In this document: positions 197 through 40,726 of the stretch, piece after piece
How positions within the stretch are numbered: position 1 is the stretch's first letter
Layout of the letters: the number at the start of each line of letters is the position of its first letter
Virus record (IMG/VR): IMGVR_UViG_3300028393_000140
Coordinates: 1 to 40,726 of that record
Strand: one strand, 5' to 3'
From: a virus
Length of the DNA stretch: 40,726 nucleotides
Position numbers and translations under genes: made by a program
Notes under the pieces: model-generated
Database searches by the model: none
The model's input: the letters and a program-made list of their open reading frames with translations, nothing else
What the model was told of the DNA's origin: nothing

Positions 197-202
197 GTGC
201 TT
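1..202. repeat. Terminal direct repeat, left copy
   Basis: Bases 1-202 match 40525-40726 with a single mismatch: T at 76 against C at 40600. The mismatch is synonymous (both codons are His of WhiB). This shows that the contig wraps around on itself, as expected for a circular assembly of a circularly permuted or terminally redundant phage genome. The mismatch argues that the two copies come from different molecules of a population rather than from duplicated reads. Confidence 0.95.
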
Positions 203-1024
203 AGTCTTACTAGGGCTTGGAGTGGTGTAACAACCAAGGCTACTCCCCTGCCCGATGTGTGGCCTGTACTTAAAACTGCACAGATTAGATTCCGTAGGGG
301 TCAAGTCTGTATGGTTGCAGCAGCGCCAAACGTAGGTAAGTCTATGTTTTCTCTGGTTTATGCGTTGAAAGCAGAAGTACCAACGTTATTCTTTTCCGCC
401 GATACCGATACAGCAACTGTAATGATTCGAGCAGCTTCACATTTATCAGGTCACTCTCAAATTACTGTTGAGACAAACCTCAATGTTAATACTGGCTATT
501 ACAATAAATACAACGAGAAGATGAAGCACATATCCTGGGTCTTTGACTCTTCGCCATCATTAGATGACATTGAGTTAGAGATCAAGGCATACATAGAGTT
601 GTATGGGATTGCTCCTGAGTTGATTGTGATAGACAACCTGATGAATGTGGCTGCCGAAACAGATAATGAATGGGCAGGGCTTCGCGCTATTATGATGGAG
701 TTGCACGATATGGCTCGAAAGACTGAAGCCTGTGTGCTAGTTCTCCACCACGTTAGCGAGCAGAGTGAGTACGGCAATACCTTTAATGCCCCACCTCGCA
801 GGGCTATACACGGCAAGGTAGCCCAACTACCTAGCCTTATCCTTACTCTTGGCTTTGATCCATTACGCAAGGAGTTGAAGGTGGCAGTAGTGAAGAATCG
901 CTACGGTCCACACGCTGCCGATGGCACAGTAAATACTCCATTAGCTGTAGATTATGCAACGTGTCAGATCAGCGAGATGCACTTTCAATCTAATAGGTTT
1001 GACCAAGGGAGTATGTACCAGTGA
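197..1024 (+). CDS. DnaB/RecA-like replicative helicase ATPase
   Basis: Predicted 275 aa ATPase of the DnaB/RecA fold, probably the replication-fork helicase. A Walker A loop, PNVGKS, is at residues 44-49; the usual first glycine is replaced by alanine. A Walker B strand, LIVID, is at 142-146. A later LVLHH segment and a VVKNRYG motif resemble the core of hexameric DnaB-type helicases. It lacks a DnaB N-terminal domain, so it corresponds to the motor domain only, as in many small phage helicases. The GTG start at 197 directly follows the whiB stop and has a GGAGG ribosome site five bases upstream. Its end overlaps the next gene by four bases (GTGA). A RadA- or RepA-like ATPase is the main alternative. 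Confidence 0.75.
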   Translation: MLSLTRAWSGVTTKATPLPDVWPVLKTAQIRFRRGQVCMVAAAPNVGKSMFSLVYALKAEVPTLFFSADTDTATVMIRAASHLSGHSQITVETNLNVNTGYYNKYNEKMKHISWVFDSSPSLDDIELEIKAYIELYGIAPELIVIDNLMNVAAETDNEWAGLRAIMMELHDMARKTEACVLVLHHVSEQSEYGNTFNAPPRRAIHGKVAQLPSLILTLGFDPLRKELKVAVVKNRYGPHAADGTVNTPLAVDYATCQISEMHFQSNRFDQGSMYQ

Positions 1025-2872: not shown

Positions 2873-3281
2873 ATCAAGTTCCACCGGAAATGATGGAATT
2901 AGTCCTCGTACTACAGAACTTGGGGCTGGAGATCCTGGCTTTGAATGGTTCAGAGCAGACCATCTTAGTAAGAATAAAACCAGTACGCCATTAAGTGACC
3001 ACCCTGCCGTTCTTTCCTATCGGCAAGAGGGTGTATCTACAGATAGTTTAGTTTCTTTTATTGAATCCTTCGCTTCCCTTCGCGCTAGTCGAGTCAAGAA
3101 GATTGGTCATCAACAGTATTCCCTTGCAAAAGGGCAGAAGTTTGAGACTTTCTCCGCCGAAGAAACTATTAAAGAATTGATTGAAGAGTTAGCAGATGCC
3201 GGCAACTACATTGATTTCCTTGCTATTAAGTTGCTCAACCTAGTATCAACTATAGAACAGAGCGATCTTTATTGTGACTGA
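2865..3281 (+). CDS. MazG-like nucleotide pyrophosphohydrolase domain protein (tentative)
   Basis: A 138 aa protein. The C-terminal half (residues 85-130) has a helix with the pattern ETIKELIEELADAGNYI. This resembles the acidic EExxE...D helices of all-alpha NTP pyrophosphohydrolases (MazG/dUTPase-2-like), which bind magnesium and cleave (d)NTPs. The N-terminal half is unlike any family I know. It overlaps the primase stop by eight bases. The acidic helix is seen directly; the enzymatic role is inferred. Phages use such proteins to adjust nucleotide pools or counter ppGpp. Confidence 0.45.
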   Translation: MYESSSTGNDGISPRTTELGAGDPGFEWFRADHLSKNKTSTPLSDHPAVLSYRQEGVSTDSLVSFIESFASLRASRVKKIGHQQYSLAKGQKFETFSAEETIKELIEELADAGNYIDFLAIKLLNLVSTIEQSDLYCD

Positions 3282-3909
3282 TAAACTCCATCCCACTCTC
3301 TACGACATTGTTCCAAGCGTAGCGAGTGTAGTATCCAAGCGGTTTCGCCATTGGGTTGAGCGAGAAGATGTTATTCAAGAGTGCTGGTTGTGGGCGACGT
3401 TAAAGAACAGAACCTTCTGCGAGCTACTAGATGAGCCTGATCCTGAGAAGCGGGTGCAGAACGAGAAGCGTATAGCCTGGCAGATGAAGCGAGTAGCAGA
3501 ACGCTACTCTCGCAAAGAGAAAGCCAATAAGTCTGGCTATCAAACTAGCGATGAATCTTTCTATGAAACTACCACTATCGCTCAACTACTGCCCTTTGTT
3601 ATCTCCTCCGTTGTCTCTGGTGTTGCCTTGCAACAAGCCCAAGAGATGATTAACGATGGTACTCCTAAAAAGCCTAGCGTTCCTGCTGAGAGTGGCAACC
3701 TGCTGGCTATGCTCATTGACATCAAGCGTGGGTATCTTAAGTTAGAGGTAGAAGAGAAAGACATACTTGAGAAGCGCTACCTTGATAGCTGGACTCTTGA
3801 ACGAATTGCTCAGTACTTCGAGTGCGCTATCTCCACCGCAGATCGCAGGTGCGCCAGTGCTATGCGTAAACTACAAGAAAACTTAGGCGGTAACACTCCT
3901 TGGAATTAA
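3274..3909 (+). CDS. Sigma-70-like transcription factor
   Basis: A 211 aa protein with a degenerate sigma-70 layout. Residues about 14-42 (VVSKRFRHWVEREDVIQECW) resemble region 2, which binds core polymerase and the -10 element. Residues about 155-205 (EKDILEKRYLDSWTLERIAQYF and following) form the region 4 helix-turn-helix that reads the -35 element. The middle is poorly conserved. The start is GTG 3274, overlapping the previous stop by eight bases. Together with WhiB, which in actinobacteria binds sigma region 4, it likely redirects host RNA polymerase to phage promoters. Confidence 0.7.
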   Translation: MTDKLHPTLYDIVPSVASVVSKRFRHWVEREDVIQECWLWATLKNRTFCELLDEPDPEKRVQNEKRIAWQMKRVAERYSRKEKANKSGYQTSDESFYETTTIAQLLPFVISSVVSGVALQQAQEMINDGTPKKPSVPAESGNLLAMLIDIKRGYLKLEVEEKDILEKRYLDSWTLERIAQYFECAISTADRRCASAMRKLQENLGGNTPWN

Positions 3910-4544: not shown

Positions 4545-5342
4545 TTACTGGGTCAAAGTATCACAGATGTTACCAATCAACCACTCAACTACAGGCACAG
4601 CCACCGCATTACCCATCTGCTTGTACCTGGCTGAGTCTGATTGTCCTGCTGTCCAGTCATCAGGAAAACCCTGCAACCGCTCGCACTCTAAAGGTGTGAG
4701 CCTTCTTACCTGAGTCTGAATCTCTGCTGCCATACCTCCCCCATTTCGTCGAAGCGTTGGTGATACCTCTTCACTTGGTTGAGCATCAAGTCCTTGTGTG
4801 TGACTAAAGATTGTTGCCACTCCGTGACCTCCAACTGTATCTATTGTAAACATAGGTTCACCTGCTTCACCAAAGCCCTTGCCTTGAGGACCTGCGGTAT
4901 CGCTTCTACCAATTACTGTACCTTGTATGGCGTAAGCCACAGACTGTGCGCCAGTTCTATCTAGCGTATAAGAGGGATCATTTTCATTACCTACACCCAA
5001 GCCATTTTGTTCTTTATTCATTTCTCTTCCATCTTGTATTGGGTAGTAAACCATAGGCATATTGTTTCCTCCCGTACCCATACGAGCTTGTAATGTGTTG
5101 ATAACTCCACCTTGGATTCGCACATCATCTACTCGATTACCATAAAAGATGATAACAGTTGTTCGCACATCACCATTATCAAAAGCATTTAGCGTTGGCA
5201 TAACGCCTCCCTCCACCCAAGTTTCGTAGTCATCCTCGTTCTGCGCTCGCCTACTCTTTGTGAACCACAAGGTTTTCGCTTCCTCCACCAAGATCACCAC
5301 CTGCGGATCGTAGTGTTCCCACTCCCTCTTTGTACCCACCAA
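4545..5342 (-). CDS. DNA cytosine-5 methyltransferase, C-terminal part (second frame)
   Basis: C-terminal portion of the methyltransferase that begins at 6063, read in another frame. Genuine coding probably starts near 5258, where the frame continues SRRAQNEDDYETW. The end (RRLTPLECERLQGFPDDWT ... YKQMGNAVAVPVV) is motif IX/X of C5 methyltransferases, which completes the SAM pocket. Between lies a long target-recognition region built from loosely repeated units ending in patterns such as PTLNAFDN, NTLQARMGTGG, YTLDRTGAQ, FTIDTVGGHG and PTLRRNGGG. Neither frame alone contains a full enzyme. It is the last gene of the leftward operon. Confidence 0.8.
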   Translation of the reverse strand: MVGTKREWEHYDPQVVILVEEAKTLWFTKSRRAQNEDDYETWVEGGVMPTLNAFDNGDVRTTVIIFYGNRVDDVRIQGGVINTLQARMGTGGNNMPMVYYPIQDGREMNKEQNGLGVGNENDPSYTLDRTGAQSVAYAIQGTVIGRSDTAGPQGKGFGEAGEPMFTIDTVGGHGVATIFSHTQGLDAQPSEEVSPTLRRNGGGMAAEIQTQVRRLTPLECERLQGFPDDWTAGQSDSARYKQMGNAVAVPVVEWLIGNICDTLTQ

Positions 5343-6063
5343 AAGAGGAGGGAGTAACTACCACATTATCTTCTGGTCTTTTGTATGAGGTGGAGGTTAT
5401 GGTTGCAGGTCCTTCTGTGTACCCTGCGAAACTTGATTGACCAAAGCTTCTTGGAGCGCCGGCGGTAGCGTCTTGCCCCTCTTGTTGGCTCGACGCAGGA
5501 TTCCCTCGCAAGCCTTGGGACTTAAAAAGTATTTCGGCAACGCTGTCGGAAATAGAACGTCTGCCAACGATGAAGATACGCCGCCTCCGTTGGGGTACTC
5601 CGAAGTATTGAGCATCAAGCACACGCCACCCAACAGAATACCCGATGTCGGCCATCGTCCCGATGACGACTCCAAAATCTTTTCCTTCGTTACTGGATAG
5701 CAGACCAGGGACGTTTTCGATGAGGAAGTATTCGCTTTTCGTTTCTTCCACAAGTCTTGCAATTTCCCAGAATAACCCGCTTCTTTCGCCAGCAAGACCA
5801 GCCCTTTTGCCAGCAACGCTGAGGTCTTGGCAGGGAAATCCTCCTGCAATAATTCCTGTGCTTGGATTAAATCCTGCTCCAATTAAATCACTCCCTTTTA
5901 CTGTAGTTACATCATCAAATAATTTACTATCGGGAAAATGCTTTGCCAATACACTCTGGCAATGCTTATCTATTTCTACGGAGGCAACGACCTTTACGCC
6001 GTTGCGCTCCATAGCCAGATCAAAACCGCCCACACCTGCAAATAGGGAAACTCCTGTAATCAT
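5251..6063 (-). CDS. DNA cytosine-5 methyltransferase, N-terminal part (frameshifted)
   Basis: Catalytic portion of a Dcm-type methyltransferase that transfers methyl from SAM to C5 of cytosine. Motif I FAGVGG is at residues 8-13, the catalytic PCQ at 77-79 (Cys78), ENV at 116-118, and QRRRR (motif VIII) at 158-162. The frame ends soon after NLVVHKE with a stop, while motifs IX-X lie in the overlapping frame at 4545-5342. Removing one base from the AAA run (plus strand TTT at 5257-5259) joins both halves into a protein of about 500 aa. This may be a sequence error, an inactivating mutation, phase variation or recoding. Its ATG follows the transglycosylase stop directly (TAAATG). The likely role is protecting phage DNA from host restriction. 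Confidence 0.88.
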   Translation of the reverse strand: MITGVSLFAGVGGFDLAMERNGVKVVASVEIDKHCQSVLAKHFPDSKLFDDVTTVKGSDLIGAGFNPSTGIIAGGFPCQDLSVAGKRAGLAGERSGLFWEIARLVEETKSEYFLIENVPGLLSSNEGKDFGVVIGTMADIGYSVGWRVLDAQYFGVPQRRRRIFIVGRRSISDSVAEILFKSQGLRGNPASSQQEGQDATAGAPRSFGQSSFAGYTEGPATITSTSYKRPEDNVVVTPSSFGGYKEGVGTLRSAGGDLGGGSENLVVHKE

Positions 6064-14297: not shown

Positions 14298-14706
14298 CAG
14301 CACCAACCCACTTAAGGGTGTATCAGGTCCTGGTAAATTCGCAAAGCGAACAGACTTACAATTTAAGCCAGATTCTTATGGCGACGGAGTCGCTATGGAT
14401 GCACTCAAGTCTGGTGCTCCATTAGCCAGCACTCCAGATGTACGCGGTGCTACTAATACACAAGTACGCCAAGCAGCGCAATCTGCTGGACAAGCGCCTA
14501 CTTCTCTTTATGCTCCAACTGAGCGACCACAAGAACCCGTTACTCACGGTATAGATGTTGGTGCCGGTGCAGGTTCTGAAGCATTAACAATGAAATCCCA
14601 ATTTGCTCAAGCAAAACTTTCTGACACTCTTGCACAAATGCTTCCCTTTGACACATCTGGTGAGATAGGTATTTTGTATCAGCGAGCAGTCGCTAGAGGT
14701 ATGTAG
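14284..14706 (+). CDS. Virion-region protein, unknown
   Basis: A 140 aa protein behind GAGGATACAG. The first two thirds are low-complexity (Ala, Gly, Pro, Thr), and the last 40 residues are helical (SQFAQAKLSDTLAQMLPF). It directly precedes the giant internal-protein gene and shares one base with its start. Probably structural; family unknown. Confidence 0.6.
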   Translation: MALADSTNPLKGVSGPGKFAKRTDLQFKPDSYGDGVAMDALKSGAPLASTPDVRGATNTQVRQAAQSAGQAPTSLYAPTERPQEPVTHGIDVGAGAGSEALTMKSQFAQAKLSDTLAQMLPFDTSGEIGILYQRAVARGM

Positions 14707-17700
14707 TGGCTAATCCAAATTTAGATTCAGCCGCAATCCAAGCGGGACTTAATGGACAACAGAAGTCACAAGTTGATGGTCTATCTAAACTACTAGACTC
14801 CCACCGCGCCCTTCTTGCTATGCCTGAAAAACAAGCACAAGTTGCTTTTGCTCAGAAACCACAAGATCAACAAAATGCACACGTTGCCTTATTTGGTGGT
14901 AACAATAGTCCTGTTGGCTGGTTAGGTGACGCTGCTCATTATGTAACTAGCGCAGCCAAAACTGCAATAGCTGCACCATTCAAAGCGCTTAACGAAGTCT
15001 CTGACTTTATGACTCGTATCTATCGTACTGGTGCCATTGCTGTAGATCAAGGTGTAGACCTTAGTAAAGCCTTTCAGATTGCTAATGACAAAGGCGATAA
15101 AGTATTTAGTCCAAACCGTATTGCTGCTGCTGAACAAAAGTACGGCAAGGATATGGTTTCTGTGGCAACTAAGGTTGCCTCTGGTCAATCACTAGATTCA
15201 ATTCTTGCAACTGGTACAGATGCCGAAAAGCAAATTGCCTCTATTGCAGCACAGAAGAAAGACCCACTCTTTCAAGATACACTTGATGCAGTTCAAGCAG
15301 CTAAGTATTCTCCTGGTCGCCAGTTAGCAAACTTACTTCTTCCAGAAGGTATGGAAGGCTCAGGTGCTTTATACAAAGGTATCTCAGGTTTCGCAGATGC
15401 AGGATACCGAGTATTTGCAGATCCTACTCTTGCACTTGGCAAAGCCAAGAAAGCCTACGATGCTGCTAACTATGCACTCTTTAAGATTGTCGGTAACGCT
15501 GAGAAATTAGACGAAGTATTTGCAAAGCCAACAGTTGTAAATTTCTTTAATACCTATGGCGAGCAACTTGATAAACTTGCTACTGCTCGTAAAGCAGGAG
15601 ATGTCAAGGCAATGGAGATCCACTCCACTCAACTGCGTCGCCTAGCTCCTGAGTTTGGTCCTACAGCAGTAGATGAATTTATTAAAGTAGGCGTTAAAGA
15701 CGCAACTACTGCTCGTAACTATTTACAAAACCACGTTGACGTATCAGCGATTCTACAAGGTCAATCAGCTCGTAAGACACCTTTGATCCCTCGCTTAGAT
15801 GCTTCTCGTCGCGCTCGCGTAATGGCTCTTACTGCAACTGATAAAGTCTTTAACATTGACAAAGTAGGACAAAAACTTGTTAACGCTTTGTACGGTGATC
15901 GGGACATTCAAACTCAAGAGATCCTTACTGGTCTTACACAGAACGCAGAAGCCATTGGCGCAGCAGAGCGCCAAGTAGGTAAGTTCAAACAAGATGGTGC
16001 TATGCGTTTATCTTTTAATCAAATCGGTGGAAAGATTGACCGCTTTGCAGCAAAGTTTACTGCTATCCCGTATTTCAAAGATGGATTCTTTGATGTGGCA
16101 TCTCGTGATGCTCAGACACAAGTTTACCGCCTTGCTCGACTAGCAAACACTCGTTACCATTCACGCATTATTGCTGAAGCATTTGCTGCTGGCGATGAAG
16201 GCCAAAAGAAACAAATCTTTACTGGTGTATGGAATACCCTTGCTGAAATTCGCGGAGTATCTCGTACCGAATCTGGACAAAGTTATATGTCTGAGTTTGC
16301 TGGTAAAGGTTTAGAGAAGCGTTACTCAGCAGACATTATTGCTAATAAGGTAGATAGCCTAGGTAACATTGTTACTGAACACGTCAGCCCATCAAACATT
16401 GATGGCGAACAGATGGCTCTCTTTCCACACCAGTTGTCAACCGCTATGGCTGTTCCTTCTATTGCAGACTTAGATCGCTTATCTGCTCGTTCCGGTCTTA
16501 TCGGAAAGATTATGGGAGTGTCTCATCAAAAGTGGGCTGAGAAGATGACCTCAATGTGGTCTATTGGAACTTTGGCTGGTCCTCGATTCCCAGTACGTAA
16601 CGCAGCAGAAGATCTTATGATGCACGTTGCCGCAGGAGATTCTACTTGGGGAATGGTTAAAGGTCGTTTCCTTTCTACCAAACTGCGTCAAGCAGAAGCA
16701 CAAGGCAACCTTGGTTTTATTAATAAACTTGTTATGCGTAAGCAAACTGATAAATACCAAAAGCAAATTGCTGAAGCAATCGCCAACGGCGATGTTAATG
16801 CCACTCGTACAATAATGGTTAATGCTCTTTTGGAACACGGCCTACCAGCAAAACTAGATGAAGAAGGTTCTGCGATTCTTGCAGAGATCGCTCGTTATGG
16901 TCGCCTTGATGAAGTTTTATCTGCCGTATCAGAAGGTGGCAAAAATGCCCTTCGTGGTGGAGATCAATTTTTAAGCACTACTAATGATGTCTCTAAATTT
17001 GGCAAAATGGGCGCTTTGGAAATTAACGGCGTAAAGTACAAGCAATCAGTTGGCGATAAGAGCTTTACTCAGATGAACCCAGTAGCTAACAAGCAGAGCC
17101 GAATTTCTTGGTTAATTCAACTTGGTATTACTAGTAATGACTCATTAGCAAAAATTGCAGTTGCAAACCTTAATGATGAAAAAACTGCTATTGCTGAAAT
17201 GACTAAATACCTTAATGGTTTGACAGATGTTGAACGAGGTCGTTTTCAACTTTACTCACGCGGATTGACTACTCAAGATCATTCCAAGAGAGCATACGAC
17301 GCAGTAAAAAATCTTTATTCAAAAGCAGATGGAACAATTAACCAAGATCTATTAAAGAAAGTAGTAAGAGTAGATGAAAAAGGAATCAGCAGAGTCTCTA
17401 CTGCTGACCTTCATTTGGAAGATCTACCATCAACAGCTAACCTTGCACCTACCTTTATTCACGGCCCGACGCTAGTACCAGTATCAGATACCGGTAACTT
17501 TGCTTCAAGTTTGGTAGACAAGGCTTGGGACTATATGGGCGAATCTAATGCTCGTTTTTCTCGTGAGCCTATTGTTATTGACGCTATGATTCGTATTCGT
17601 AAGGATATGGTCTCTTCAGGTTTTGATAAGCATTACCTAGATCAGATGACTGCTGGACTTACTGGTGATAACCTCGTTATGGCTCAAGAAACAGCAAAGC

Positions 17701-19337
17701 GTCACTTAGTTTCTATTGCAGAAGAAATGGCAAAGAGCCGAGTACTACAGTATGTGGATAATCCTGCTGTTCGTAGCCAACTTGCTATGTCTGCTCGTAA
17801 CTTTGCTCGCTTCTATCGAGCTACCGAGGACTTTTATCGCCGCGTTTATCGCACAGTTAAGTACAATCCAGAAGCATTAACTAGAGCAAGCCTTATTTAT
17901 GAAGGAATTGCTCACTCTGGCTTTGTGCAAACCGATGATAATGGGGATCAGTACTTCTTTTACCCAGGACTAACCCCTGTGTACAAGGTAATGAACAAGG
18001 TAATGCACATTTTTGGTGTTAAAGATGCTTTCCAAGTTCCAATTCCAGTGGAGTTTGGTGGCAAACTCAAGATGATTACACCATCTATGAACCCAGACTC
18101 ACTGTTTCCAACTTTTGCGGGTCCTTTAGCCAGCGTTCCAATCAAAATGATTGGCAATGTTATTCCACAAGTTAAAGATTTAGAGCAATACCTGACTGGT
18201 AACTATGGTCAAGATCAACCTATGATCTCTGCCATTCTACCTGCTCACGTAAATCGTTTACTTCAAACTCTTAGTGCGGATGAACGTAATTCACAGTACG
18301 CATCTGCTGCCCGTAAAGCTGCAACTTACCTTGAGGCTTCAGGTCACGGACTTGATGTAAAAGTAGATCCAGTAACTGGTGAAGAAATCCCACCAACTGC
18401 TGGTGAGATTGCAAAGTACCAAGATAAATTACAAGCATCTACCCTTACTATTTTGGGATTACGCTTTGGCTTTGGATTCTTTGCTCCTGCTTCCCCTCAA
18501 GTTACTCTCAAGTCAGATATGGCTAAGTGGGTGCGCGATAACGGACGTACTAGTTATAAGCAAGTATTCAATAACCTCATCACCCAGTACAACGGTGATA
18601 TTGATAAGGCTACTCAAGACTGGATTAAACTCTTCCCAGATCAAATGCCTTACACCGTATCTGAGTCCGAAAGCAATGTTGTAGCTAATGTTCGCGCTGT
18701 TAGCAGTGCAAATGGTTGGGTTCAAGAAAACCAAAAACTACTGGCTCAATACCCAGAAGCAGCAGCTTTCTTAATTCCACAAGTGGGCAAGTTTGATTTT
18801 AATGCTTACAAGTTACTGGCAACCCAAGGTCTTAAATCTAACAAGACAGTTACAGACTTTCTCCGTCAAGTATCTGTGGCTAAAGATGCACAGACTTACT
18901 ATGCCAAAAAAGATGAGTTTGACCAACAACTTAGTTTTGCAATGTCAACAGATGTCAAGCGTCAAATTAGAGATCAATGGCAGACTTGGTCAGATCAGTT
19001 CAAGGGCGCAAGGCCCTTGCTTCAAGAACAACTTGGTTCAGGTGCTGCAAAAGCAATCGAGCGCACTAGAGCACTTGATGATCTTCGTCTAATGCTTAAT
19101 GATTCTAACGTAACCGCAGAATCTGGCACCCGTAATGTCTTAAAGCAAATGCTTGATTCTTATGATGCCTATACCTCAAACAGAGATTTTGCTAGCCAAC
19201 CAGGTAGCGGAGTATCTCAACAGTATAAAGATTCCTTAAAGACCAATACTGCTTCTGAATTACAGGCAATAGCCGCGAATAACCCGAACGCATTAGCTGC
19301 ATACAATTCTTTGTTTGCACCAATGCTTCGCCAATAA
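14706..19337 (+). CDS. Very large virion protein (internal/ejection protein candidate)
   Basis: A 1543 aa protein, the largest in the genome, starting at GTG 14706. It is overwhelmingly alpha-helical with many Ala, Lys, Gln and Asp residues and no transmembrane array, unlike a typical tape measure. It lies between portal and scaffold/capsid genes rather than among tail genes. In podoviruses this is where large internal virion (ejection) proteins that form the DNA-delivery channel are often encoded. I see no transglycosylase or other catalytic motif. A tape-measure role is less likely but cannot be excluded. Confidence 0.65.
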   Translation: MANPNLDSAAIQAGLNGQQKSQVDGLSKLLDSHRALLAMPEKQAQVAFAQKPQDQQNAHVALFGGNNSPVGWLGDAAHYVTSAAKTAIAAPFKALNEVSDFMTRIYRTGAIAVDQGVDLSKAFQIANDKGDKVFSPNRIAAAEQKYGKDMVSVATKVASGQSLDSILATGTDAEKQIASIAAQKKDPLFQDTLDAVQAAKYSPGRQLANLLLPEGMEGSGALYKGISGFADAGYRVFADPTLALGKAKKAYDAANYALFKIVGNAEKLDEVFAKPTVVNFFNTYGEQLDKLATARKAGDVKAMEIHSTQLRRLAPEFGPTAVDEFIKVGVKDATTARNYLQNHVDVSAILQGQSARKTPLIPRLDASRRARVMALTATDKVFNIDKVGQKLVNALYGDRDIQTQEILTGLTQNAEAIGAAERQVGKFKQDGAMRLSFNQIGGKIDRFAAKFTAIPYFKDGFFDVASRDAQTQVYRLARLANTRYHSRIIAEAFAAGDEGQKKQIFTGVWNTLAEIRGVSRTESGQSYMSEFAGKGLEKRYSADIIANKVDSLGNIVTEHVSPSNIDGEQMALFPHQLSTAMAVPSIADLDRLSARSGLIGKIMGVSHQKWAEKMTSMWSIGTLAGPRFPVRNAAEDLMMHVAAGDSTWGMVKGRFLSTKLRQAEAQGNLGFINKLVMRKQTDKYQKQIAEAIANGDVNATRTIMVNALLEHGLPAKLDEEGSAILAEIARYGRLDEVLSAVSEGGKNALRGGDQFLSTTNDVSKFGKMGALEINGVKYKQSVGDKSFTQMNPVANKQSRISWLIQLGITSNDSLAKIAVANLNDEKTAIAEMTKYLNGLTDVERGRFQLYSRGLTTQDHSKRAYDAVKNLYSKADGTINQDLLKKVVRVDEKGISRVSTADLHLEDLPSTANLAPTFIHGPTLVPVSDTGNFASSLVDKAWDYMGESNARFSREPIVIDAMIRIRKDMVSSGFDKHYLDQMTAGLTGDNLVMAQETAKRHLVSIAEEMAKSRVLQYVDNPAVRSQLAMSARNFARFYRATEDFYRRVYRTVKYNPEALTRASLIYEGIAHSGFVQTDDNGDQYFFYPGLTPVYKVMNKVMHIFGVKDAFQVPIPVEFGGKLKMITPSMNPDSLFPTFAGPLASVPIKMIGNVIPQVKDLEQYLTGNYGQDQPMISAILPAHVNRLLQTLSADERNSQYASAARKAATYLEASGHGLDVKVDPVTGEEIPPTAGEIAKYQDKLQASTLTILGLRFGFGFFAPASPQVTLKSDMAKWVRDNGRTSYKQVFNNLITQYNGDIDKATQDWIKLFPDQMPYTVSESESNVVANVRAVSSANGWVQENQKLLAQYPEAAAFLIPQVGKFDFNAYKLLATQGLKSNKTVTDFLRQVSVAKDAQTYYAKKDEFDQQLSFAMSTDVKRQIRDQWQTWSDQFKGARPLLQEQLGSGAAKAIERTRALDDLRLMLNDSNVTAESGTRNVLKQMLDSYDAYTSNRDFASQPGSGVSQQYKDSLKTNTASELQAIAANNPNALAAYNSLFAPMLRQ

Positions 19338-38028: not shown

Positions 38029-38069
38029 AGCCCCCTGCTCCTTAATTGGAGTGGGGGGCTCTATTTTTT
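38029..38069 (+). terminator. Strong intrinsic terminator of the late operon
   Basis: A 13-base-pair stem (38029-38041 with 38048-38060, two G-U pairs) with loop TTAATT, then T6 at 38064-38069. It lies 23 bases after the last late gene. Its tail overlaps the stop of the opposing gene at 38068, so the hairpin may serve both directions. Confidence 0.88.
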
Positions 38070-38301
38070 ATGCCAAAAATTCGGGGTTATCAGCAGGACA
38101 GGGAACTTGTACTAGGTTCCCGCAACTGACGCAGGTGGCATCTAAGAACCACCAGGCTATGTCATACTCTTCAAACTGCACTATTACGTTGAACATAGTG
38201 GAGCCACAGGCGCAAACGTGGGTGGGTCCCATAAAGCGTAGGTCGGAAACATACTTACTAGGTAGCTTGTTTTTTAACAGGGTTGGTAGACGGAAACGCA
38301 C
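38068..38301 (-). CDS. Zinc-ribbon protein, lone leftward gene
   Basis: A 77 aa protein from GTG 38301 with GAGAGG nine bases upstream. The pair CAC (30-32) and CVSC (57-60) form a zinc ribbon around a beta-rich core (MFNVIVQFEEYDIAWWFL). ATG 38232 is a shorter alternative start. It is transcribed alone from its own promoter (38362-38390), unlike every other gene here, so it may be expressed at a distinct time. Function unknown. Confidence 0.75.
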   Translation of the reverse strand: MRFRLPTLLKNKLPSKYVSDLRFMGPTHVCACGSTMFNVIVQFEEYDIAWWFLDATCVSCGNLVQVPCPADNPEFLA

Positions 38302-38390: not shown

Positions 38391-38414
38391 GGAATAAGGC
38401 ACTCACGGCGTGTC

Positions 38415-38433
38415 GCGTGTTACACTTCACTAA
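38415..38433 (+). promoter_or_regulatory. Rightward early promoter, probably leaderless
   Basis: TACACT at 38421-38426 is directly preceded by TGT (an extended -10). Six bases separate it from the ATG at 38433. Initiation at the usual distance would fall on the A of the ATG, giving a leaderless mRNA, a common mode in actinobacteria. No good -35 box or ribosome site is visible. Confidence 0.55.
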
Positions 38434-39002
38434 TGACAACACTCACTGGTATCCAAGGTAACGGCTTTGTTGTACTCGCCGCAGATTCACAGATCACAGA
38501 AGATAACCTTCGGACGATCTCTAGTAGCACTCCCAAGATTGTCACACGTGGCAAGTATGTTATTGGGATAGTGGGAGATACCCGCCCAGGTGACATCTTG
38601 AGCTACAACTGGAATCCGCCAGTGTATAAAGGTGAAGATCCTATTCAATTTATGGGAAAGAAAGTAGTGCCTAGTATTATCACCGCTTTTAATCAGAACA
38701 ACTACACGTGGGGTACCAGTGATAAAGATTCAGGTTTTGATTACCTGATCGCTTTTAACGGCAACCTCTTTCACATTGCCTGCGATATGTCCTTTATCCA
38801 AGCAGATCACGGTCTCTATGGTCTAGGTACCGGTGGTCAGTTTGCTATGGGTTATCTCTGGGCTATGAAGGACTCCAGCTATGAGTACGAGTGGGACATT
38901 GACTCCTCTAAGTCTTTCGCCACCGATTCAATTAAATGTGCCAGCATACTTGACACCAATACTGGACTGCCTGTACAACTGGTTACTCAGGAGAGGAACT
39001 GA
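38433..39002 (+). CDS. Proteasome beta-subunit/HslV-like Ntn peptidase
   Basis: A 189 aa protein starting MTTLTGIQGNGFVVLAAD. After removal of Met the first residue is Thr, the nucleophile of proteasome-type threonine peptidases. Asp17 falls exactly at the proteasome position, Lys34 is one place from the canonical Lys33, and a GLGTGGQFAMGYLWA segment near residue 130 corresponds to the conserved GSG region before the last helix. There is no long propeptide, as in HslV. ATG 38433 is chosen over the upstream in-frame ATG 38283 because homology begins here and the promoter sits just upstream. First gene of the early operon. It may degrade host or phage proteins, alone or with host regulatory ATPases. 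Confidence 0.82.
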   Translation: MTTLTGIQGNGFVVLAADSQITEDNLRTISSSTPKIVTRGKYVIGIVGDTRPGDILSYNWNPPVYKGEDPIQFMGKKVVPSIITAFNQNNYTWGTSDKDSGFDYLIAFNGNLFHIACDMSFIQADHGLYGLGTGGQFAMGYLWAMKDSSYEYEWDIDSSKSFATDSIKCASILDTNTGLPVQLVTQERN

Positions 39003-39003
39003 A

Positions 39004-39156
39004 ATGGAAAAGACCGTAGCAATACAAATGCAAGAATTACTTGCAAGAATTGAAGATGAAGTAAGCATTATGAAGCGTGGCGATAATGATTGCTGCCACA
39101 ATTACGAACGCAGATTGTTAGATGTTCTTGACTTTGAGAAGTCTAAAATCAAATGA
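39004..39156 (+). CDS. Small charged helical protein, unknown
   Basis: A 50 aa ORF behind GAGAGG, one base after the peptidase stop. Helical, with a CC pair in the middle (NDCCHNYERRLLDVL). It overlaps the nuclease gene by four bases. Function unknown; its pairing with the peptidase gene might mean an adaptor or inhibitor, which is speculation. Confidence 0.58.
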   Translation: MEKTVAIQMQELLARIEDEVSIMKRGDNDCCHNYERRLLDVLDFEKSKIK

Positions 39157-40103
39157 AAGAATTACTTATACAGATCCTTCGAGATAAAGATGCTTCTCGT
39201 TCTCGTAGTACACAAACCCAAGTGGGTCCATCAGAATTAGGCGGCTGTCGTCGTAAGGTCTGGTATCGGTTGAACGATCAACCAGAGACTAACGACAATG
39301 AGTTAAAGCTCGCTGCCATTATGGGAACAGCGATCCACGCTGAGATAGAAAAAGCCTTAGCCATAGCCGATCCTAGCGGGGAGAAGTATATGGTTGAGAC
39401 AGAGGTTGAATACGGCGATATGAAAGCCCACATTGACCTCTACATCCCAGAAACTGGTGACGTAGTTGACTGGAAAACTGTAAAGGTGAAGAACCTTTCC
39501 TATTTTCCAAGTCAGCAACAGCGTTGGCAGGTTCAGGTCTATGGCTACTTGCTTGAAAAATCGGGGAAGGGGAAGCCTCGAAACGTCAATCTTGTAGCCA
39601 TAGCCAGGGATGGCGATGAACGAGATGTAAGGGTTCACTCTGAACCTTATGATCCCGTGATGGCACAGCAAGCCTTAGACTGGTTAGCTGCTATTAAAGA
39701 TTCCAACGAGGTACCTGAGCCAGAACGCGAAGCAAGTTTTTGCCAGCACTATTGCAAATACTATGACGTTACTGGTGAGATGGGATGCGTTGGTCTAAAA
39801 AAAGGTCGTACCGGTAGCGTAGAGTTACCGGTGATTGAAGATGCTGAGGTGGATAAGAACGCCTTGTTGTATCTGCAATTAGATCAAGAGATAAAACTCT
39901 TAACGAACCAGCGCGACGGTTTGAAAGAAGCGTTAGCAGGTATCAAAGGAGTTACACCTACTGGAGTTTACGTTGATTGGATTCCAGTAGCAGGTCGCAA
40001 GACTATTGACACCGATGAAGTTGAGAAGGCTATGGGTGTCATACCCTACAAACAAGGAGAGGAATCTCAACGGATTTCTGTCAAATTAACTGGAGGAAAG
40101 TAA
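39153..40103 (+). CDS. Cas4/RecB-like PD-(D/E)xK exonuclease with Fe-S cysteines
   Basis: A 316 aa nuclease. VGPSELGGCRRKVWY carries Cys32. The active site is His62 (GTAIHAEIE), Asp95 (HIDLYIPE) and Asp106-x-Lys108 (VVDWKT), with a following QVQVYGYLL helix. Three more cysteines (197, 201, 212) complete a four-cysteine set as in Cas4/AddB-type iron-sulphur nucleases. It likely processes DNA ends during phage recombination or degrades host DNA. No CRISPR genes are nearby, so it is not part of a CRISPR system. The C-terminal 100 residues are helical and unassigned. Confidence 0.83.
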   Translation: MKELLIQILRDKDASRSRSTQTQVGPSELGGCRRKVWYRLNDQPETNDNELKLAAIMGTAIHAEIEKALAIADPSGEKYMVETEVEYGDMKAHIDLYIPETGDVVDWKTVKVKNLSYFPSQQQRWQVQVYGYLLEKSGKGKPRNVNLVAIARDGDERDVRVHSEPYDPVMAQQALDWLAAIKDSNEVPEPEREASFCQHYCKYYDVTGEMGCVGLKKGRTGSVELPVIEDAEVDKNALLYLQLDQEIKLLTNQRDGLKEALAGIKGVTPTGVYVDWIPVAGRKTIDTDEVEKAMGVIPYKQGEESQRISVKLTGGK

Positions 40104-40462
40104 TGGCTGCGAGTGAAAACACAGTGTTTCAGATTAACTTCAAAACTAATGCTGGCACACTAATTAACATTTACGCTAAGGATGCTCACGATCTTGAGGC
40201 GCACCTAGCTACGATTCAGGATGTATCAACGCTGATTAATAGCGTTAACACCACACTTAATGGAAGTTCAGTAGCGGCAACTAACGTTGCCTACGCTGAG
40301 GCAGCACTGGGTGCTGCACCTACCGGTGGAGATGCACCAACTTGTAAGCACGGTCCTATGACTTATCGAACTGGTCAGGGTGCAAAGGGTCCTTGGAAGG
40401 GTTGGATGTGTCCAGCTCCTAAAGGCGCGATAGATAAGTGTGACACCGTCTGGGTTAGATAA
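40103..40462 (+). CDS. Zinc-finger protein, possible single-strand DNA-binding role
   Basis: A 119 aa protein, TAATG-coupled to the nuclease. Beta-alpha N-terminal domain (VFQINFKTNAGTLINIYAKD), an Ala/Gly linker, and a C-terminal metal site: Cys81-x-His83, Cys103 and Cys113 around GPWKGWMCPAP. Aromatic and basic residues near the zinc site suit nucleic-acid binding. Function not established. Confidence 0.62.
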   Translation: MAASENTVFQINFKTNAGTLINIYAKDAHDLEAHLATIQDVSTLINSVNTTLNGSSVAATNVAYAEAALGAAPTGGDAPTCKHGPMTYRTGQGAKGPWKGWMCPAPKGAIDKCDTVWVR

Positions 40463-40465
40463 CCT

Positions 40466-40720
40466 ATGCGGGTCCCTTTGCAATTTGAGGAACCCTTATG
40501 TGCTGAGATCGGGATGGATGCTTTCTTTCCTGAAGTAACAGACACCAATAGGCAGCGAGTTGTTATCGTCGCTAAGCGAGTGTGTGGATCTTGTATCCAC
40601 CAAACTGAATGTGCTGAGTGGGCTATCGCCAACGAACAACACGGTATTTGGGGTGGACTAACTCCAATGGAACGCCGAACAATTCGTATAAGAAAAAAGA
40701 TGAAGTTTCCGGAGGGTTAA
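40466..40720 (+). CDS. whiB: WhiB-family Fe-S transcription factor
   Basis: An 84 aa protein with the WhiB signature: Cys12, Cys40-x2-Cys43 and Cys49 to hold a [4Fe-4S] cluster, the GIWGG turn (residues 60-64) that contacts sigma region 4, and a basic tail (RRTIRIRKKMK) for DNA binding. WhiB proteins are restricted to actinobacteria and their phages, so this marks the host group. It lies between the zinc protein and the helicase (at 197 after circularisation). Its ATG has no strong ribosome site; an inverted repeat GGTTA/TAACC sits just before it. Confidence 0.95.
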   Translation: MRVPLQFEEPLCAEIGMDAFFPEVTDTNRQRVVIVAKRVCGSCIHQTECAEWAIANEQHGIWGGLTPMERRTIRIRKKMKFPEG

Positions 40721-40726
40721 GTGCTT
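40525..40726. repeat. Terminal direct repeat, right copy
   Basis: The same 202 bases as 1-202 with one synonymous mismatch (C at 40600 against T at 76). The unique circular length is therefore about 40,524 bases. Confidence 0.95.

Follow-up and report, generated by a model that had tools for sequence, protein, structure and literature searches.

Why would a bacteriophage place a proteasome-like threonine peptidase at the head of a replication operon, and what would such an enzyme act on? The question is raised by a freshwater virus, IMG/VR virus record IMGVR_UViG_3300028393_000140, analysed here over its full 40,726 nucleotides ("the window"). An initial annotation had described a proteasome beta/HslV-like protein heading an early operon and had proposed, among other roles, that it joins or poisons the proteasome of the host. 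The fold, the active site and the place at the operon head all stood up to our analysis, whereas the joining or poisoning of the host particle found no support. The features to which we refer are the following.

38029-38069 (+): terminator-like hairpin with a T run, seen in the sequence itself; it lies behind the lysis genes and parts them from the early operon
38068-38301 (-): conserved divergent gene of 77 aa with zinc-ribbon-like cysteine pairs (CxCG...CxxCG) and a GTG start
38406-38415 (+): conserved promoter/operator motif CGGCGTGTCG, with the core GGCGTGTC/GACACGCC, common to loci with the Ntn enzyme and loci with the metallopeptidase
38421-38426 (+): -10-like element TACACT of a leaderless-type start, its end 6 nt from the ATG
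38433-39002 (+): proteasome-like Ntn-hydrolase (threonine peptidase), 189 aa, with catalytic Thr1, Asp17 and Lys34, and Gly47
39004-39156 (+): small ORF of 50 aa between the peptidase and the Cas4-like gene, a spacer that varies between phages
39153-40103 (+): Cas4-like PD-(D/E)XK exonuclease, which served as an unbiased anchor
40103-40462 (+): L5/D29 gp49-like protein (PF25690, PHROG_364)
40466-40720 (+): WhiB-like regulator, a marker of an actinobacterial host
197-1024 (+): DnaB-like helicase, which follows WhiB in the operon when the contig is closed over its redundant ends

The peptidase is the first gene of an exonuclease-WhiB-helicase operon, and the placement made by the initial annotation holds across hundreds of contigs, in which lysis genes are followed by the divergent zinc-ribbon gene, the peptidase, small ORFs, the Cas4-like exonuclease, the gp49-like gene, WhiB and DnaB. 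The ends of the window overlap by about 202 nt (1-202 equals 40525-40726 with one mismatch), and the operon therefore runs from WhiB on into DnaB at 197. The genome, of about 40.5 kb, is thus closed into a circle or has terminal redundancy, although IMG/VR lists it among linear ones. The WhiB gene, a portal related to those of Streptomyces phages and the relatives of DnaB (all from actinobacterial phages wherever a host is named) point to an actinobacterial phage. In Streptomyces phage Immanuel3, gp32 in the corresponding slot looks WhiB-like and no peptidase was found there. Gene content and the presence of its own promoter suggest that the operon is early. The region upstream of the peptidase may look empty but is not entirely non-coding: the zinc-ribbon gene lies there on the opposite strand, divergent from the peptidase. 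Homologues of it occur in most related loci and also in peptidase-less phages, there beside WhiB and a sigma factor; its product gave no Pfam match and no DNA-binding domain was found in it.

Elsewhere in the window, a 1543-aa protein of the structural region (14706-19337) has no PHROG match, resembles the RNA polymerase domain of virions at a sub-threshold level only (E 0.055), and could be an ejected virion protein. Two adjacent ORFs at 4545-6063 (minus strand) each match DNA methyltransferase families; they may be two subunits, or a single gene that a frameshift has split. PADLOC returned zero defence matches, and no Rfam or tRNA features were found.

As described in the initial annotation, the product of 38433-39002 begins Met-Thr-Thr (MTTLTG). 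Numbered after removal of the methionine, it has Thr1, Asp17 and Lys34, the last one place off the canonical Lys33, and the GxGxGG segment noted near 130 is GLGTGG at residues 130-135 (Met = 1). Thr1, Asp17, Lys34 and Gly47 are unchanged in every one of 60 distinct close homologues and in all 47 diverse homologues, with identity down to 22%; across about 220 aligned loci they are kept in every row that has a letter in the column. This conservation is far beyond chance. The Pfam family Proteasome (PF00227) matched at 23.2 bits against a cut-off of 22.4, over residues 2-43 only, and PHROG_1040 ("peptidase HslV family") matched the full length (E 3e-20). Because a sequence search of the PDB gave only weak matches, to HslV, the fold was modelled. 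AlphaFold2 with 14 close homologues as input reached a pLDDT of 47.6 and that model was discarded; the alignment of 47 diverse sequences used instead gave a pLDDT of 89.8 and a pTM of 0.87. The top Foldseek match of this model in the PDB was Thiobacillus BPH (E 3.7e-12, TM 0.71-0.75), followed by yeast 20S beta2 and then HslV; in all, 1228 PDB chains reached E <= 1e-3. Among viral models, 40 matched at E <= 1e-3, one of them an 'HslV' from an uncultured phage and another a protein of a Gordonia phage. The absence of an Ntn-hydrolase fold, or homologues without Thr1, Asp17 and the lysine, had been named as evidence that would overturn the assignment; the comparison found the fold, and the three residues are invariant. 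As far as sequence and structure prediction go, the protein is thus established as a genuine proteasome-like Ntn hydrolase with its Thr1 active site intact.

Group I of the proteasome-like homologues comprises BPH, HslV, AAH, CPH and PPH (Fuchs, Alva and Lupas, 2021; PMC8665760), of which PPH, AAH and CPH have been reported in phages (PMC8665760). The window protein is like these in its fold, in Thr1/Asp17/Lys/Gly47, in the absence of a propeptide and in its compact subunit. Identity with PPH is ruled out by length and helix content, PPH having about 140 aa and lacking H2, whereas the 189-aa window protein has predicted helices at the H1 (residues 50-58) and H2 (70-88) places, ahead of a strand at 102-108. 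Since the predicted H1 is short, ring assembly may deviate from the BPH/HslV type. The NCBIfam models for HslV scored 20.0 and 19.5 bits against cut-offs of 137 and 157.75, and the model for bacterial 20S beta (PrcB; TIGR03690, NCBIfam) gave no match at E <= 0.1; PrcB and HslV proper nonetheless have the fold and the catalytic residues in common with the window protein. It may belong to AAH, to CPH or to an additional group I subfamily. Neither near the peptidase gene nor among the annotated window genes (the small ORFs being partly scanned) did we recognise a partner of the HslU or Mpa type, and these annotated genes include no AAA+ unfoldase.

Relatives of the window peptidase are encoded in at least 586 IMG/VR stretches and, by tblastn, in 29 records of annotated phages. 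Those of the PHROG_1040 type occur in Actinomycetia phage DSL-LC01 (annotated HslV, and also adjoining WhiB), Arthrobacter phage Hum25 and Microbacterium phage Pumpernickel (annotated 'protease'), and Vibrio phages. The earlier survey reported AAH from no phage specific to Actinobacteria, and its authors saw nothing in the genomic context that hinted at function (PMC8665760). Scans of genome collections, non-exhaustive and dependent on exact matches to short peptides, gave zero actinobacterial host copies with alignment A1 and just three weak matches, in Chromatiales and Burkholderiales MAGs, with alignment A7, again without an actinobacterial host copy; we therefore claim no host origin.

A narrower view of function comes from phages of the same lineage that carry a small HExxH protein in place of the Ntn enzyme. 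Scans that used the Cas4-like gene as anchor, and so made no selection for the peptidase, gave 154 loci: 130 had the Ntn enzyme, 19 the HExxH metallopeptidase, none had both, and the five with neither were truncated, with less than 235 nt of sequence upstream of Cas4. The corresponding counts for all Cas4-bearing loci fetched, which include loci found via the peptidases and some duplicate contigs, were 213, 43, 0 and 5. Exactly one of the two enzymes was also found in each of 38 phage records (31-44 kb) that were searched whole, having been picked through either enzyme or through Cas4. In the replacing gene, H53, E54 and H57 as well as E74/E75/D78 are invariant in nine aligned members and likewise in a broader set, so that both HExxH and a downstream acidic ligand are present in this putative Zn metallopeptidase. 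It is assigned from the motif together with a Pfam match, to DUF6782, that is weak (E 6e-8); the protein also weakly matches M78 (ImmA/IrrE-like) and SprT.

On a tree of Cas4 and DnaB with 113 representatives, the slot changed state at least eight times under both LG+G4 and LG+C20, and 6-7 of the changes are forced by well-supported branches. In one pair of loci (L210/L220) the sequences agree at about 80% identity as far as the metallopeptidase start and do so again from its stop onwards; thus one cassette replaces the other. Identity patterns indicate that the swapping is partly exchange within a shared gene pool and not repeated capture from outside, and the state changes are therefore not all independent inventions. 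The repeated swapping for an unrelated metallopeptidase suggests that the slot requires a dedicated protein-cutting enzyme of whatever chemistry. Since two unrelated peptidase chemistries exchange, the selected trait would be proteolysis of a substrate and not a structural contact with the host proteasome.

The exchange bears on two other readings. A proteasome-beta-like fold in an actinobacterial phage would fit a subunit that joins or poisons the host Pup-proteasome, as the initial annotation had proposed. We regard this as extremely unlikely, given that the nearest structures are BPH and the protein is closer to the BPH/HslV type, that the bacterial 20S-beta model found no match at E <= 0.1, that catalytic residues unneeded for poisoning are strictly conserved, and that occupation of the same slot by an unrelated metallopeptidase is unexpected under joining or poisoning. 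The Ntn family also includes non-peptidases, connectase for instance being a ligase (PMC8665760), and the window protein could in principle be an amidase or a connectase-like ligase. That is very unlikely in our judgement, because a HExxH peptidase-like protein substitutes for it in the same slot and the proteasome-type catalytic set is conserved.

Both enzymes appear to be read from the same kind of promoter. In 170 of 196 Ntn loci and 36 of 40 metallopeptidase loci, the 120 nt ahead of the start contain the 8-mer GACACGCC in one orientation or the other; the rest of these loci has it at a rate of 0.0054 per 120 nt. A TAnnnT box at -15 to -6 precedes 67% of the Ntn genes and 83% of the metallopeptidase genes, compared with 1% of the downstream operon genes, and Shine-Dalgarno-like 4-mers are depleted (33% and 13%, versus 88%). 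Together, the shared motif, the box and the depletion argue for one leaderless-type promoter common to both enzymes, and the leaderless look that the initial annotation had attributed to the promoter in the window, where we find TACACT 6 nt before the ATG, extends to the lineage. The window has a second exact copy of GGCGTGTC at 2739-2746, within the primase region, and other genomes of the group likewise have single copies of the motif in their replication modules. A phage-encoded sigma factor (3274-3909) could be the reader of the conserved promoter.

A motif that sits between the zinc-ribbon gene and the peptidase gene might also be an operator. Destruction of the repressor ImmR by ImmA offers a model for such a switch: the zinc-ribbon protein would repress the early operon via GGCGTGTC, and the peptidase would destroy it. 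The divergent arrangement is found in 119 of 162 Ntn and 25 of 36 metallopeptidase loci, and the weak match of the replacing enzyme to the ImmA/IrrE-like M78 and to SprT points the same way. However, the zinc-ribbon gene is retained in phages that have no peptidase, its product is without a recognised DNA-binding domain, the motif precedes the early operon of ct2KA10 and F5 although no peptidase gene comes first there, and the genes examined include no integrase. We thus consider a repressor-cleaving switch distinctly unlikely.

A related clade places its homologue elsewhere. 'Ca. Planktophila' is among the most abundant freshwater bacterial groups. Two phages of this sister clade, LanE43AprE7 and AprF5 (OX376640/OX376641), were cultured on it (PMC10202952), and their portal (about 50%), terminase, helicase, primase and sigma factor are related to those of the window. 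Their peptidase gene lies directly behind the portal, whereas that of the window heads the early operon. F5, the one of the two genomes read whole, has a single proteasome-like gene (locus L275; OX376641, 17155-17691). The paper on these phages makes no mention of a protease or proteasome (PMC10202952), and the two records carry no annotation. The sister-clade homologue starts 13-18 nt after the portal stop codon in 80 of 80 loci retrieved with a homologue, E7 and F5 included; the window and sister-clade peptidases are about 30% identical (32% for E7/F5). In a portal-anchored scan of this clade, 46 of the 69 loci with enough downstream sequence had the homologue and 23 did not. Eighteen of these 23 records were read whole and have neither enzyme, and five of the 18, with at least 37 kb read in each, have no HExxH ORF either. 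The peptidase function is therefore dispensable in the broader sense. A rule of exactly one peptidase is rejected as universal for the whole portal-defined group by these 18 records and is confined to the Cas4-operon lineage.

For the sister clade, linkage of the gene to the portal points to a late role in morphogenesis, and such a role is the main rival to an early function in the window. The position right after the portal is usual for prohead proteases, and these are known to be replaced by non-homologous ones. The enzyme could then mature or clear a head, scaffold or ejection protein, its gene having been relocated from the structural cluster in the lineage of the window, and no other maturation protease was recognised among the structural genes of the window. 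The gene adjoins the portal in the sister clade but in the window lies at 38433, in the early operon, with its own promoter and a terminator-like hairpin between it and the late genes. Some sister-clade phages have the same portal without such an enzyme, and the two groups, at about 30% identity, may differ in role. For the window, we consider a morphogenetic peptidase unlikely, although less so than the other alternatives. Literature searches on prohead and nucleophile aminohydrolase found nothing, and those on phage proteasome and freshwater actinophage found nothing relevant.

On balance, we lean towards a dedicated, early, ATP-independent peptidase that acts on one specific substrate, a reading that is somewhat probable. 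The slot's peptidase would be synthesised early from a leaderless transcript, and removal of the methionine would free Thr1. The subunits could then assemble into a small BPH/HslV-like homo-oligomer without an AAA+ partner, and the assembled enzyme would cleave or clear one specific host or phage protein. The likeliest candidates for that protein are a factor or defence component of the host and a phage protein that regulates the early switch. It is plausible that the role is early and directed at the host.

Proteasome-like proteins of viruses have been described before (PMC8665760; PHROG_1040), and the protein taken alone joins a known group. PHROGs gives no role for PHROG_1040, nor does its annotation cover the place at the operon head, the exchange with a metallopeptidase or the promoter motif that both enzymes share. 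To the extent of the literature searched, these three features are new, as are the relatives linked to the portal in cultured phages of Nanopelagicales. Proteasome relatives in viruses, known since 2021, have so far offered no clue to what they do, and their genomic surroundings were uninformative in the paper that described them (PMC8665760). In the present lineage the surroundings do inform: slot and promoter are fixed, and an unrelated peptidase replaces the enzyme in nature, which makes the function testable by complementation. Since the sister clade has phages cultured on 'Ca. Planktophila' (PMC10202952), the portal-linked alternative is directly testable on virions. More broadly, and tentatively, a widespread group of freshwater actinophages may possess a conserved protease slot in the early operon, in which one peptidase is obligatory while its fold and chemistry (threonine or HExxH zinc) are indifferent, both kinds serving a shared essential substrate; this is possible, with the greater weight against it. 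If this reading of the slot is true, it would be, to our knowledge, the first case of a viral proteasome relative and a metallopeptidase acting as functional equivalents.
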